From NCBI GenBank assembly GCA_026129255.1, contig JAHCIJ010000001.1:372001-436000 (forward strand): 64,000 nt of DNA. The letters run 5' to 3'. Every line of letters starts with the position of its first letter. Positions within the stretch are counted from its first letter, which is position 1. Source of the stretch: Anaerolineales bacterium. Lineage in GTDB: Bacteria > Chloroflexota > Anaerolineae > Anaerolineales > UBA11579. Below the pieces are notes generated by a model. That model saw only the letters and a list, made by a program, of their open reading frames with translations. It searched no databases and was not told the DNA's origin. The position numbers and the translations under genes are program-made. Shown here in pieces: positions 8,629 through 13,563 of this stretch.

Positions 8629-9084
8629 CTACTTGCCTTCAAACACCCATTTGTCGATGTCGCGGTTCCAGCTCACCAGCTCCTCGGCCTTGAACCACAG
8701 CGCCACTTCGCGCTCACCGGTCTCGGGCTTGTCTGATGCGTGGGTGAGGTTGCGGCCCACTTCCAGACCGAAGTCATGGCGGATGGTGCCCGGCGCGGCT
8801 TCGGTGGGGCGGGTGGCACCCATCGTCTGGCGGATGGCCGCCACGGCGTTGGGGCCTTCCCAGGCCATCGCCATGACCGGGGCGGAGGTGATGTACTCCA
8901 CCAGGCCGTTGTAGAAGGGTTTGCCCTGGTGCTCGGCGTAGTGCTCCTCGGCCAGGGCGGTGCTCACCTGCATAAACTTGGCGCCCGCCAGGCGCAGGCC
9001 GCGGCGCTCCAGGCGGGCGATGATCTCGCCAACCAGGGCGCGTTGCACGCCATCTGGCTTAACCAAAACTAAACTGCGTTCCAA
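8629..9084 (-). CDS. ndk: Nucleoside diphosphate kinase
   Basis: 151 residues from a TTG start preceded by GGAGG 5 nt upstream. Opens with ERSLVLVKPDGVQRALVGEII. The active-site segment is GRNLTHASDKPETGEREV, where His takes the place of the phosphorylated histidine in the usual NxxHxSDS motif. It transfers gamma-phosphate among NTPs and NDPs in the cytoplasm. Length is standard. It follows the TPR gene on the same strand but a terminator-like structure separates them. Confidence 0.95.
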   Translation of the reverse strand: MERSLVLVKPDGVQRALVGEIIARLERRGLRLAGAKFMQVSTALAEEHYAEHQGKPFYNGLVEYITSAPVMAMAWEGPNAVAAIRQTMGATRPTEAAPGTIRHDFGLEVGRNLTHASDKPETGEREVALWFKAEELVSWNRDIDKWVFEGK

Positions 9085-9167: not shown

Positions 9168-12100
9168 TTACAGCAGCGATTTGGCGCGGGTGTAGCAATC
9201 CAGCGCCTCGGTGAGCTGGTTGTTGCGCATGTAGGCATCCCCCAGCGTTTGCCATACGGCCACCTGGCGCGGGAAGCGGCGCGAGGCAGCCCGCAGGTCG
9301 GCGATAACTTCGTCCAGGCGGATGCGGCGGCGCAGGAAGTAGCTGTAGGCTTCGGCGGCGTCGCCCAGGTTGCCGTAGCTCAGCGCCTGGCGCGCTTCGG
9401 CCAGGCGGTCCTGGACCTCTTCGGGGGAGAGGCCGCGGGCGCGCTTGCGCGGCGCTGCGGCCGCGGCTGTTTCCGTAGCGGCGGCCGCAAATTCCAACTC
9501 GTGCGCTTCTGGCTCTGGCTGCTCGGCCTCGTACGAGGTCTCGTACGAGTTCTCGTATGAATCTTCGTGCGAAGTCTCGCGCGCGGGTTCAGCCTCGTAT
9601 GCGGGCTGCTGCTCGTATGTTTGTGTCAACTCAGCCTGCGGGGTAGCCTGTTCAGGCTGTTCCGCCTCAGGCTGCTCTGCCTCAGGCTGCTGGGCCTCGT
9701 ATGAGGGCTCGTACGAAATCTCGCGCGCGGGTTCCGCCTCGAGCTCGTATTCATCTTCCGCATATGCAGCCGCCTGAGGAGTGATCGGCAGCCCGTCTGC
9801 GGCCAGCGTTTCCACTTCATAGGTGGCTTCGTTGGACTCTTCGCTTGGGTGTGCCCAGCCCTCATCATCTTGTGCGCTGGGCAGCGCTTCGCTATCGGGC
9901 TCGCCAGTGGGCAGTTCGCTGGTGGCGGGCAATTGGCTGGCAGGTACCCAACGTGGCTCGATCACCGGGGCAGGCGCGCTGTCCTCTGTTTCATCTTGGC
10001 TGGCGGCGTCTTGCTCAGACGCCGCATCCCAGGCTGGCTCTTGCGCTTGAGCAAGGCGGCGTAGCCAATCGGGCGTGTCGTCTACTGGTGCGTCGGCGTT
10101 GGTCGGCTCTGCGGCTGGCTCCGGTTGTGCTTCAGCCGTCTCAGGCTCCACGGCATCCGGTTCGCTGGGCCACTGGGGAGCTTCGTCTTCGTCACCAGCA
10201 TATGTGGCGCGCAGGCTATCGGTGTCTTGGGGGCGTAGATCGCTCAGCCAGTCCGGGGCATCGTCCAGCGGGCGCGGCGCGATCGGTTCGTCGGCAGGCT
10301 GCTCTTCCAGCGAGCCGGTGAAGTGGCGCAGCCAGCCAGGCGTGGCGTCTTCAGCAGGCTCGCTTGTCAAGGCTTCATCAGACAGTTCCTGGCTGAAGGG
10401 TGAATCCTCTTCCAGCCCGCGCTGCGCGTCTGCTTGTGCTGCGTCGTTATCCGTTGCTGCGTCCACCGGGCCAGCGGCTGCGGCCAGCTCATCCAGCCAG
10501 CCGAGGTTCTCGCTCAATTTTGGCGCAGCCGCGTGGGCCTGCTCTGGTTGTTCGCCTTGCTCGGCCTGCATCCAATCCGGCTTGGCAGTGCTGCGTTGCG
10601 CTGGGTCAGTGAGCAACTCGTCTTCGGCTACGCCGCGGCGGGCGGCCAGGCCCTCCAGCCAGCTCAGGGTTTCGTCTTCTTCGCCGCCCTCATCGGCTGG
10701 GGCGCCGGCTTCGGCCTGTGGCTCAGTGAACGCCGCGGTTGGTTCATCCGCTTGCGCCTCGGGTTGTGCGGCCGTTTCCTGCATGCTGCTTGGATCTTCA
10801 GTGGGGGTTTGCCAGCCAGCCAGTGCGTCCAGGCGCTGGGTGCTCTCCGCGTCGTTCAGCTCATCCGTGCGCGGCAACTCGCTATCGTCATCCGCCATGC
10901 CAGAGCTGGCCTGCAATTCATTCAGCCAGTTGGGCTGTGCTGCGGCTGCGCTCTCCTCCGCTTCAGTAGGCACCGTGTCTGCTTGCCCATCTGGCGTATC
11001 CAAAATATCGCTGCGCAGCTCAGGTTCGGGATCAATAAAGGCGGGCGTATCCCCGAGTGCGCTGGCCGCTGGCCGCGTGGGTTGCGTGTGTGCCAGCGCG
11101 TCTTCGTTCATCTCGGCCAGCCATTCCGGCACGGGGCGCTCGGGGGCGGCTTCGCTTGGCGCGCCGTCCTCCTCGGTGAAGGCGGTGTCCAGCCAACGCA
11201 GTTCGCCGGTGGGTAGCCAGCCAGTGGGGCGGCCAGTGGCTTGGCCACTAGCCTGCGGCTCGCCTTCGTTGGTCTCGGGCGCCGCTTCGTCAGGTGCGGC
11301 GTCGCCAGTTACTGCTTGGGCTGCCTCGTGTGCTTCCACATCCCCCAGGTCCAGTGGGCCGGTGGGCTGGAAGCCAGCTTGTTCAAACTCTTCGGTCCAG
11401 CGTTTGCCGGGGGCGGCATCAGGATCCAAACTGGCGGTGGGGTTACTAGGGCGCAGCTCGCGCAGCCAGTCAGGAATGTCGTCTGGTTCCAGCGCGCCGG
11501 TCTGGAAGGGGGAGTGGGGCGCTAGCGCGCCGTCATTCACAAGGCCTTGGTCTACCGGTTCCAGCCCTTCCAGGCTGCTCATGACAGAATCCGGCTCGAC
11601 CACATCACTTGCGGTAGGAGCATCCATGTCTTCCACAGAGAGCCAGCCGGGCAGGTCTTCTTTTTCGTATTCGCTGTCGGTTTCGCCTGCTGCCGCGCCG
11701 GGTGCGCCGAGCAGCATGGGGCTGTCCAACTCCAGCGCATCGATCATGACGCTGTCGGCGGGCACATCGTCTACATCCTTGAGCGTGCTTACCTGGGCGG
11801 CGTATGGATCCAGCTCTTCGACGCGCTCCCAGTACGGGGTTGCTTCCACATCGCGCTGACTGTTGCGCAAAATATCCACCATGACGCGGTTGGCATACAG
11901 GCAGTAGGGCAGCTTCTGGATGATCTGCGAGCACACCGCACTGGCTTCATCCGGCTGGTTGTTCTTGTAATGCATCTCCGCCAGCAGCACTTGCAGATCC
12001 GGGCGCTGGGCGTCTTCGGCCAGGGCGTTGTTCAGCTCACCGATGGCCTGGTTGAACAGGTCGCCGTGTGAGTACATGCGCGCCAGCGCACCGCGCGTTA

Positions 12101-12491
12101 AACGCACCTTGGGCGGCTCGTAGCCTTCGCGCAGGCCATACAGGCGACGCATCTCGCCTTGCACGGCTTTGTTGGATGGCTGTGACTCAAAGGCGCGTTC
12201 CATCTGCCAGATGGCGGCGTCCAGGTTGCCTTCGTCCTCACGGATGATGCTCATGCCAATGTGGGCCACAAAATCATCTGGGATGGATGAGAGCACGCGC
12301 TGAAACAGGTCACTGGCCTCGCTGTGACGCTTGCTCTCCAGATAGGCTTTGCCCATCAGACGGTAGGTAGCGATGTTCTTTGGGTAGGTTTTGAGCACAT
12401 GGCGACAGTGCGCCAGGGCGTCTTCTACCTGATTGGAGTCGATTAGCTGATCGATCCCTGAGAGATACTCGCGTAAATTGGTAGCAGCCAT
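9168..12491 (-). CDS. TPR protein with long acidic linker carrying WL-motif repeats
   Basis: About 1107 residues from ATG 12491 (ATG 12515 is also possible; neither has a clear ribosome binding site). Residues 1-230 are helical TPR repeats (for example IATYRLMGKAYLESKRHSEA). A very long Glu/Ala/Pro-rich, probably disordered region follows. It contains about a dozen short copies of a motif like PDWLxxL: IPDWLRELRP, VPEWLAEMNED, QPNWLNELQAS, LSWLEGLAARRG, LGWLDELAAAAG, TPGWLRHF, APDWLSDLRP, TPDWLRRLAQ. Next come Tyr/Glu repeats (SYENSYETSYE, EQPEAEQPE). The last 85 residues return to TPR helices. No signal peptide or membrane helix, so probably a cytoplasmic scaffold. Function unknown. Confidence 0.85.
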   Translation of the reverse strand: MAATNLREYLSGIDQLIDSNQVEDALAHCRHVLKTYPKNIATYRLMGKAYLESKRHSEASDLFQRVLSSIPDDFVAHIGMSIIREDEGNLDAAIWQMERAFESQPSNKAVQGEMRRLYGLREGYEPPKVRLTRGALARMYSHGDLFNQAIGELNNALAEDAQRPDLQVLLAEMHYKNNQPDEASAVCSQIIQKLPYCLYANRVMVDILRNSQRDVEATPYWERVEELDPYAAQVSTLKDVDDVPADSVMIDALELDSPMLLGAPGAAAGETDSEYEKEDLPGWLSVEDMDAPTASDVVEPDSVMSSLEGLEPVDQGLVNDGALAPHSPFQTGALEPDDIPDWLRELRPSNPTASLDPDAAPGKRWTEEFEQAGFQPTGPLDLGDVEAHEAAQAVTGDAAPDEAAPETNEGEPQASGQATGRPTGWLPTGELRWLDTAFTEEDGAPSEAAPERPVPEWLAEMNEDALAHTQPTRPAASALGDTPAFIDPEPELRSDILDTPDGQADTVPTEAEESAAAAQPNWLNELQASSGMADDDSELPRTDELNDAESTQRLDALAGWQTPTEDPSSMQETAAQPEAQADEPTAAFTEPQAEAGAPADEGGEEDETLSWLEGLAARRGVAEDELLTDPAQRSTAKPDWMQAEQGEQPEQAHAAAPKLSENLGWLDELAAAAGPVDAATDNDAAQADAQRGLEEDSPFSQELSDEALTSEPAEDATPGWLRHFTGSLEEQPADEPIAPRPLDDAPDWLSDLRPQDTDSLRATYAGDEDEAPQWPSEPDAVEPETAEAQPEPAAEPTNADAPVDDTPDWLRRLAQAQEPAWDAASEQDAASQDETEDSAPAPVIEPRWVPASQLPATSELPTGEPDSEALPSAQDDEGWAHPSEESNEATYEVETLAADGLPITPQAAAYAEDEYELEAEPAREISYEPSYEAQQPEAEQPEAEQPEQATPQAELTQTYEQQPAYEAEPARETSHEDSYENSYETSYEAEQPEPEAHELEFAAAATETAAAAAPRKRARGLSPEEVQDRLAEARQALSYGNLGDAAEAYSYFLRRRIRLDEVIADLRAASRRFPRQVAVWQTLGDAYMRNNQLTEALDCYTRAKSLL

Positions 12492-12576
12492 GCGTTTGGG
12501 AAAGTAGTATGCCATTTTAGAGGCATACACGCAAGCAGCGCGGGCGAATTGTCTCTGCAGGAGTATCATTCGCTGC

Positions 12577-13563
12577 ATGAGCCATTCGATTGAAGCACAC
12601 GGCCTCAGCCGCAACTATGGCGGCCTGCGCGCCGTAGACGGGCTGAGCCTTTCTGTGCAGGCTGGCGAGTTGTTCGCCCTGCTGGGGCCAAACGGCGGCG
12701 GCAAGACCACCACGCTGGGCATGCTCACCACGCTGCTGCGCCCCAGCGCGGGTACGGCCCGCGTTGCAGGCTACGATGTGGCCGCCCAGCCGCACGAAGT
12801 GCGCCGCTGCATCGGTGTCGTTTTCCAAGGCCCCAGCCTGGATGAGCAACTGACGGCCCGCGAGAACCTGGATTTCCATGCCCGCATCTATAACCTGCCA
12901 CGGGCAGTTTTCCGGCAGCGTAGCGATGAGCTGCTGGCACTGGTGGAGCTGGCCGAGCGCCAGCACGAGCCGGTGCGCAACTTCTCGGGCGGCATGCGCC
13001 GCCGTCTGGAACTGGCCCGCGGCCTGATGCACCAGCCCCAGGTGCTGTTCCTTGACGAGCCCACGGTGGGACTGGACCCGCAGACGCGCCGGGCGATGTG
13101 GGACTACTTGCACACCTTGCGTCAGCAAAGTGGCGTGACCATCTTCCTCACTACGCATTACTTGGAAGAGGCCGAAGGCTGCGACCGGGTCGCTATCCTG
13201 GATAGCGGCACGCTGGCCGCGCTGGACACGCCCGCTGCGCTCAAGGCCACGCTGGGCGGCGATGTGCTGCACTTCCGCGTGGCGGATGTACAGGCTGCCG
13301 AGCAGCTCTTGCACGCTGAGGGGTTGGCGGTGCGCCGCGGCCCTGAAGGCCTGGCCGTCGAAGTGGGCGATGGACCGCAGCGCATCCCCGAGTTGGTGGC
13401 GGCGCTGGAGCGCGGCGGCCACGCCGTGCAGGCCGTCAATCTGCGCCGTCCTTCGCTGGAGGATGTGTTCATTAAACTCACCGGCCGCGCCATCCGCACT
13501 GAGGCGCCAGACGCCGCCGAAGCGCTCGTCCGCCGCGGCCGCATGGGGCGCAGCAGACGATGA
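12577..13563 (+). CDS. ABC-2 exporter ATP-binding protein (DrrA/CcmA-like)
   Basis: 328 residues. Walker A GPNGGGKTTTLGM (about 37-49), Q-loop VVFQGPSLDEQLTARENL, signature FSGGMRRRLELARGL, Walker B VLFLDEPTVGLDP and H-loop LTTHYLEEAE are all intact. A C-terminal extension of about 100 residues (DUF4162-like) follows, as in DrrA-type ATPases of drug or lipid exporters. TATCAT at 12564-12569 ends 7 nt before the ATG and CAGGAG lies at 12558-12563, so it could be translated leaderless or from that distant site. Overlaps the permease gene by 4 nt (ATGA). It is divergent from the TPR gene. Confidence 0.93.
   Translation: MSHSIEAHGLSRNYGGLRAVDGLSLSVQAGELFALLGPNGGGKTTTLGMLTTLLRPSAGTARVAGYDVAAQPHEVRRCIGVVFQGPSLDEQLTARENLDFHARIYNLPRAVFRQRSDELLALVELAERQHEPVRNFSGGMRRRLELARGLMHQPQVLFLDEPTVGLDPQTRRAMWDYLHTLRQQSGVTIFLTTHYLEEAEGCDRVAILDSGTLAALDTPAALKATLGGDVLHFRVADVQAAEQLLHAEGLAVRRGPEGLAVEVGDGPQRIPELVAALERGGHAVQAVNLRRPSLEDVFIKLTGRAIRTEAPDAAEALVRRGRMGRSRR

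Follow-up and report, generated by a model that had tools for sequence, protein, structure and literature searches.

What keeps a dozen short tryptophan-leucine motifs in the chain between the two ends of a tetratricopeptide repeat (TPR) protein? The question is raised by one gene in the window, by which we mean the whole 64,000-nucleotide stretch of the Anaerolineales contig that was analyzed. Much work on disordered arrays of docking motifs has been done in eukaryotes, but to our knowledge such arrays have rarely been traced through a bacterial phylum. With a probability of roughly 0.7, we read the gene product as a soluble, probably cytoplasmic scaffold in which two TPR ends flank a disordered acidic chain that would carry an array of short hydrophobic docking motifs.

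Architecture of the protein

The longest minus-strand open reading frame of the gene spans 9168-12614. At residue 42 of this long frame, 84 of 98 aligned homologues have Met and 8 have Val; the start is therefore probably at 12491, which makes the protein 1107 residues long. The main features are these:

9168..12491, minus strand: gene of the TPR-linker-TPR protein, 1107 aa from the probable ATG at 12491 to the stop at 9168
11790..12491, minus strand: N-terminal TPR domain, residues 1-234 of the 1107-aa protein (Pfam TPR families, AlphaFold, Foldseek)
9435..11789, minus strand: acidic linker of ~785 residues, predicted disordered, with the motif array (composition, AlphaFold pLDDT)
9171..9434, minus strand: C-terminal TPR piece, ~88 residues (Pfam TPR_2 at 1119-1147 of the long frame)
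8629..9084, minus strand: ndk, nucleoside diphosphate kinase, the downstream neighbor (PF00334, 3.1e-55), kept across the phylum

The Pfam scores were 79 bits for TPR_19 (cut-off 25) and 55.5 bits for TPR_2 (cut-off 27), and the C-terminal TPR piece recurs in many homologues. Among the named TPR families of NCBIfam (PrsT, MamA, PilW and LapB), none reached its curated cut-off, the best scores being 62.6 bits against 312.2 for PrsT and 46.6 against 200 for MamA. An AlphaFold model of the N-terminal TPR domain, built on a two-sequence alignment, consisted of TPR-like helix pairs with a mean pLDDT of 70, and Foldseek matched this model to general TPR domains only, with low TM-scores. When the TPR domain was modeled together with the first two motifs, nearly every one of the ~190 linker residues included had a pLDDT below 40. 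The preliminary description had called the linker acidic and disordered; its composition is indeed acidic, and the disorder is predicted nearly throughout the modeled part.

Antisense over the linker lies a plus-strand open reading frame of 594 aa (window 10075-11859). Its Ser/Ala-rich make-up, together with the conserved minus-strand frame, suggests that it is probably no gene.

The motif array in the window

The linker contains 18 Trp residues, 12 of which precede Leu or Met, and the spans of these W[LM] motifs lie between 10050 and 11657. Their consensus is [DE]-x-[LIV]-P-[DE]-W-L-x-x-L. Listed in order along the protein, with their fate in the nine homologues from the same genus, they are:

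11628..11657, minus strand: WL motif 1, DLPGWLSVED; Trp kept in 9/9 genus homologues
11451..11480, minus strand: WL motif 2, DIPDWLRELR; Trp and Leu kept in 9/9
11202..11231, minus strand: WL motif 3, RPTGWLPTGE; kept in 5/5 near relatives, absent in the 4 far ones
11178..11207, minus strand: WL motif 4, GELRWLDTAF; Trp kept in 5/5 near, absent in 4 far
11106..11135, minus strand: WL motif 5, PVPEWLAEMN; Trp kept in 5/5 near, absent in 4 far
10911..10940, minus strand: WL motif 6, AQPNWLNELQ; kept in 5/5 near, not in 4 far
10557..10682, minus strand: module B, EEDETLSWLEGLAARRGVAEDELLTDPAQRSTAKPDWMQAEQ, holding WL motifs 7 (W652) and 8 (W681); found with our own HMM, genome-search match at 10560-10682
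10482..10511, minus strand: WL motif 9, ENLGWLDELA; kept in 9/9
10317..10346, minus strand: WL motif 10, DATPGWLRHF; kept in 9/9
10233..10262, minus strand: WL motif 11, DDAPDWLSDL; kept in 9/9
10050..10079, minus strand: WL motif 12, DDTPDWLRRL; kept in 8/9
9933..9962, minus strand: related Trp site that is not WL, IEPRWVPASQ; Trp kept in 8/9

We compared the linker with shuffled versions of itself. PxW[LM] occurred 8 times, against a shuffle mean of 0.17 and a maximum of 3 in 2000 shuffles; [ILVTA]P[DEG]WL occurred 6 times (shuffle mean 0.02) and WL..[LMIV] 7 times (shuffle mean 0.16). The preliminary description had spoken of about a dozen WL motifs, and the 12 counted here, far above the shuffles, agree with it. 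The five strings it had quoted are all present in the frame 9168-12614: IPDWLRELRP at residue 380, VPEWLAEM at 495, LGWLDELAAA at 704, APDWLSDLRP at 786 and TPDWLRRLAQ at 847. The motifs are thus real, but the pattern under which they had been gathered was too narrow, as its strict form with Leu at +4 fits two copies (IPDWLREL and TPDWLRRL) and the others are variants. A steady spacing of 40-80 residues did not hold up; the actual intervals range from 8 to 89 (59, 83, 8, 24, 65, 89, 29, 25, 55, 28 and 61).

Conservation of the motifs in a drifting linker

Among five near members of the genus, the TPR domain is ~90% identical while the mean identity of the linker is 0.43. Across the 12 motifs in these genomes, identity was 0.98 at the Trp, 0.90 at position -2, 0.87 at +1 and 0.80 at +4. 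The mean over motif positions was 0.81 versus 0.43 for the linker; of 5000 circular shifts, 0.12% reached this value. For four more distant members of the genus, the corresponding values were 0.55 for motif positions and 0.19 for the linker, with the same fraction of shifts (0.12%), and 4 of the 12 motifs were missing. Two other Trp residues of the linker, W862 and W920, were not conserved in the genus comparison. At the codon level, differences at motif Pro and Leu positions were 83 synonymous versus 18 nonsynonymous, and those in the rest of the linker were 629 synonymous versus 1549 nonsynonymous. Judged by these sequence comparisons, purifying selection preserves the amino acids of the motifs, and the surrounding chain drifts. 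The preliminary description had staked its case on the W-L pairs outlasting the drift of the linker among orthologues, and this is what we observed. Chance or composition as the source of the motifs was ruled out by the shuffles, the circular-shift control and the codon test.

Homologues in the class and the order

Matches to the gene at E <= 0.001 were found in 153 of 199 genomes of the class, a count that includes weak matches to the TPR part only. The homologue set comprised 60 stretches from the class, one of which is the window itself, and 40 from the order, including nine from the same genus; one further homologue record is JAHCII010000027.1, from an Anaerolineales bacterium. The alignment used above holds 98 of these 100 loci, taken at E <1e-25 and a length >200; L119 and L031 cover one and the same stretch of contig, which is represented among the 98 by L119 alone. 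For counts per linker we used 77 of the 100 loci with a complete linker, having dropped those with E >= 1e-25 and those whose linkers were 3'-truncated, short (<100 aa) or filled with N. The sequence logo and shuffles were made from 61 linkers, truncated ones included, with 35,904 residues and 871 Trp. Loci L143, L149 and L151 had no usable linker in the linker comparison.

Across the 61 linkers, PxW[LM] was observed 448 times versus 11.4 expected by shuffling. The logo on the 871 Trp residues had acidic residues at -5 and -4, an aliphatic residue or Ala at -3, Pro at -2 (59%), Asp or Glu at -1 (60%), Leu (68%) or Met (7%) at +1 and Leu at +4 (41%), and the signal was near background beyond ~6 residues from the Trp. 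The complete linkers contained a median of 13 W[LM] (range 0-34). The search of homologous TPR proteins that the preliminary description had proposed thus recovered at least 4 motifs in 72 of the 77; the five linkers with fewer than 4 were those of L055, L077, L078, L079 and L082. Motif number also varied among relatives, as had been suggested for checking: it ranges from 4 to 8 PxW[LM] within the genus, and the number of W[LMIV] rises with linker length among homologues (Spearman rho 0.84).

Two of the class linkers with few Trp-Leu motifs, L078 and L079, contain other repeats (of the FELPSIFAEQP type and the ADWRAELRETTEALLAE type), perhaps further replacements of the motif.

Module B and confinement of the arrays to one gene

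Module B is a unit of ~42 residues with the consensus DEALAWLESLAAKQGAxEEELLTxPExRxxxxPDW. Our own HMM found 99 copies in 40 of the 98 homologues, with up to 8 per protein. When 61 genomes of the order were searched with the module alignment, the module turned up in 29, and the matches lay in open reading frames of the TPR gene or on contigs that also bear the gene's other end (G220:C73, G230:C43 and G248:C76); one further open reading frame with the module, of 415 aa, lay on the same contig as the TPR gene (G240:C120). At locus L129 (G241:C9), the linker has recently expanded in tandem and contains eight near-identical units of ~68 residues, each with module B.

In the window's own genome, the pattern P[DEG]WLxxL had 23 matches versus 6 for a backward control. 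Five of the 23 fell inside the span of the TPR reading frame, four in sense and one on the opposite strand, and the others were scattered singly. A stricter motif pattern in 13 genomes likewise gave few matches. We also considered a general sorting signal common to many proteins; this was unsupported, the matches outside the TPR gene being few and single.

Neighboring genes

Downstream of the TPR gene and on the same strand, ndk was present in 64 of the 100 class and order loci, a 65th match being on the other strand; 58 matches in these loci lay within 300 bp. When 301 genomes of the phylum were searched with the TPR domain as query, 106 had a match at E <= 1e-15. We compared 40 loci from this search, 36 from the same phylum and 4 from the same order, and found ndk downstream of the TPR gene, on the same strand, in 31. 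Beyond the TPR gene and ndk, an RsfS-like gene on the opposite strand was seen in 43 of the 100 loci (L062 and others).

A reading frame of the Roadblock/LC7 type (MglB-like) stood between the TPR gene and ndk in all 12 non-class loci that we read by eye (L154, L157, L160, L163-L166 and L168-L172), and one Roadblock/LC7 frame adjoining the TPR gene matched PF03259 at 4.7e-18. By tblastn, a Roadblock gene was located <=900 bp downstream in 22 of the 40 loci, which are mostly outside the class, and in 0 of the 100 loci of the window's class and order samples. The window's genome has two Roadblock genes elsewhere, of another subfamily and with other neighbors. As read from sequence, these neighbors suggest no GTPase; the frame that follows one of the genes (L205, 5929-6984) is presumably V4R-like. 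Out of 301 genomes of the phylum, 91 had both the TPR gene and Roadblock, 15 the TPR gene only, 19 Roadblock only and 176 neither, counts that ignore kinship and use a loose TPR threshold.

Other motif arrays beyond the class

Eleven of the 40 loci, including L154, L157, L160, L163 and L165, had no PxWL array and carried repeats of the PFSLEELGLSPEEI type (PFSL type) instead. These 11 homologues contained 196 PFSL repeats with the consensus EPELxPFSLEELGLSPEEIAxL, and FSLxxLGL-type strings were observed 135 times versus 0.02 by shuffling. In three closed genomes the PFSL array lay within the TPR gene, apart from scattered single matches. L153 and the four same-order loci had PxWL arrays like those of the window's class, and PxWLxxL motifs were also present outside the class in L168, L169, L171 and L183, with 3 to 7 PxW[LM] each; most of the remaining loci had neither a PxWL nor a PFSL array. 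Elsewhere in the phylum, the architecture is kept at this locus, but another array may be in use. Because five of the 77 complete linkers have fewer than 4 Trp motifs and 11 non-class homologues use another motif, the Trp motif is not indispensable to the family.

Discussion

The reading that we prefer, a scaffold with docking motifs in its linker, would work as follows. Each [DE]x[LIV]P[DE]WLxxL motif would form a short helix capped by Pro-Asp, presenting the Trp and two Leu residues to one kind of hydrophobic pocket. In some relatives the longer WLESLAAKQG...PxW modules would join the docking array. With many weak copies on one chain, binding would gain avidity, and the protein could collect its partner in many copies or cross-link them. 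The preliminary description had proposed multivalent docking sites, and the selection on the motifs, their recurrence in 72 of 77 linkers and the predicted disorder support that part of it well; docking itself we infer from the sequences, as we do the helix, the avidity and the cytoplasmic place.

Two explanations would do without docking. If the linker were a neutral, low-complexity chain, the Trp-Leu motifs would be by-products of composition and tandem duplication, and the recent tandem copies in some relatives and the rise of motif number with length are what one would then see; the shuffles, the conservation against drift and the codon test contradict this, and we consider it extremely improbable. 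It is also quite improbable that the motifs are what is left of folded repeats that have degenerated, hidden TPR-like helices. The residues W, +1 L and +4 L of the motif copies do follow a helical pattern, and module B resembles a helix with a second short segment, but information falls to near background ~6 residues from the Trp, the spacing is irregular (8-89) and the pLDDT of the linker is very low.

If the motifs dock, they may do so on the protein itself. Binding to the groove of its own N- or C-terminal TPR domain could occur in cis, as auto-inhibition, or between molecules, giving head-to-linker assembly or a condensate. TPR domains are classical peptide binders, and the N-terminal one is ~90% conserved in near relatives, compared with 43% for the linker. 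Some of its conserved residues lie outside the TPR consensus; W95 of the 1107-aa protein, for instance, is kept in 94 of 98 homologues. In the genomes searched, the arrays were seen in the TPR gene only, so no other protein would have to share the receptor; as any switch of motif would also call for a matching receptor, docking within one protein is economical. Against it, no docked motif was evident in the AlphaFold model of the TPR domain with two motifs, a weak point as this was summary output of low confidence from a shallow alignment of two sequences. In addition, many TPR positions are common to homologues with different motifs, and no more than six are sharply switched (>=75% in both groups; 103 class-type versus 11 PFSL-type). 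An attempt to find the receptor by co-variation ended there, the six switched positions giving no assignment to a groove. We place self-docking first among the named candidates, as a tentative but distinctly possible account.

The partner could also be a module of Roadblock/LC7 and a Ras-like GTPase, with the motifs recruiting Roadblock dimers or the GTPase to a polarity or motility hub. The Roadblock/LC7 gene directly downstream in 22 of 40 loci, mostly of other classes, points this way, as does its co-occurrence with the TPR gene in 91 of 301 genomes, kinship ignored. In the window's class, however, an adjacent Roadblock gene was found at 0 of 100 loci and the Roadblock proteins are of another subfamily, which makes such a hub unlikely. 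The share of probability left by these two candidates goes to a dedicated protein other than the protein's own TPR domains or the Roadblock/GTPase module.

Known systems offer partial parallels to the scaffold with docking motifs. The peroxisomal import receptor PEX5 may be its nearest working likeness: it is soluble and combines a TPR domain with a long disordered region bearing several short Trp motifs, as the window protein has 12 W[LM] motifs, of a different type, in a low-confidence linker. The comparison is one of how the proteins might work, as PEX5 is eukaryotic, has WxxxF/Y rather than PDWLxxL motifs and one C-terminal TPR domain, and has PEX14 as its partner. In a description of PEX5, the WxxxF/Y motifs W0-W7 dock to one small domain, the PEX14 NTD (PMC8086558). 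HubP/FimV are described as bacterial scaffolds in which a long acidic region lies in the cytoplasm and the C-terminus is a TPR domain (PMC12918733). An acidic chain and a C-terminal TPR piece are found in the window protein as well, but HubP/FimV also have a LysM-like domain in the periplasm and a segment that spans the membrane, whereas the window protein starts with TPR and has TPR at both ends; Pfam found no LysM family in it. SgmX of Myxococcus is reportedly a TPR partner of the Ras-like GTPase MglA. In Bdellovibrio, the TPR protein Bd2492 is described as binding MglA and RomR (PMC3983030). Such hubs are tied to Roadblock/GTPase polarity and resemble the present locus in other classes, where Roadblock is a neighbor, but differ from the window's class, which is without that neighbor. 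For kinesin light chain, the tryptophan-acidic motif sits in cargo proteins; unlike these cargo motifs, the array here is inside the TPR protein itself. The TPR domain of kinesin light chain is described as reading Trp flanked by acidic residues (PMC6224480).

We found no account of the TPR-linker-TPR family in the open-licence literature, though one may exist in print. The letters PDWL led to unrelated papers only, among the matches listed, and the main text of a paper on prokaryotic Ras-like GTPases mentions neither tetratricopeptide nor nucleoside diphosphate (PMC4316618).

A wider and rather doubtful view is that of a phylum-wide Chloroflexota scaffold, in which the TPR ends and the TPR-[Roadblock/LC7]-ndk locus are ancient, the motif array has been exchanged between lineages and the protein is the organizing hub of a polarity or motility system of the Roadblock/GTPase type. 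The exchanged arrays would be PDWLxxL in the window's class, the similar PxWLxxL in another group and PFSLEELGLSPEEIAxL in a third. If true, this would be a natural experiment in the joint replacement of a multivalent array and its receptor.

The array can be traced at one syntenic locus through a class and beyond; it is kept by selection, its number changes with linker length, and other lineages have another motif in its place. Should the partner be found, this one gene would be a test of how motif arrays and their receptors evolve, and would open a first way into a conserved but unnamed scaffold of the Chloroflexota.
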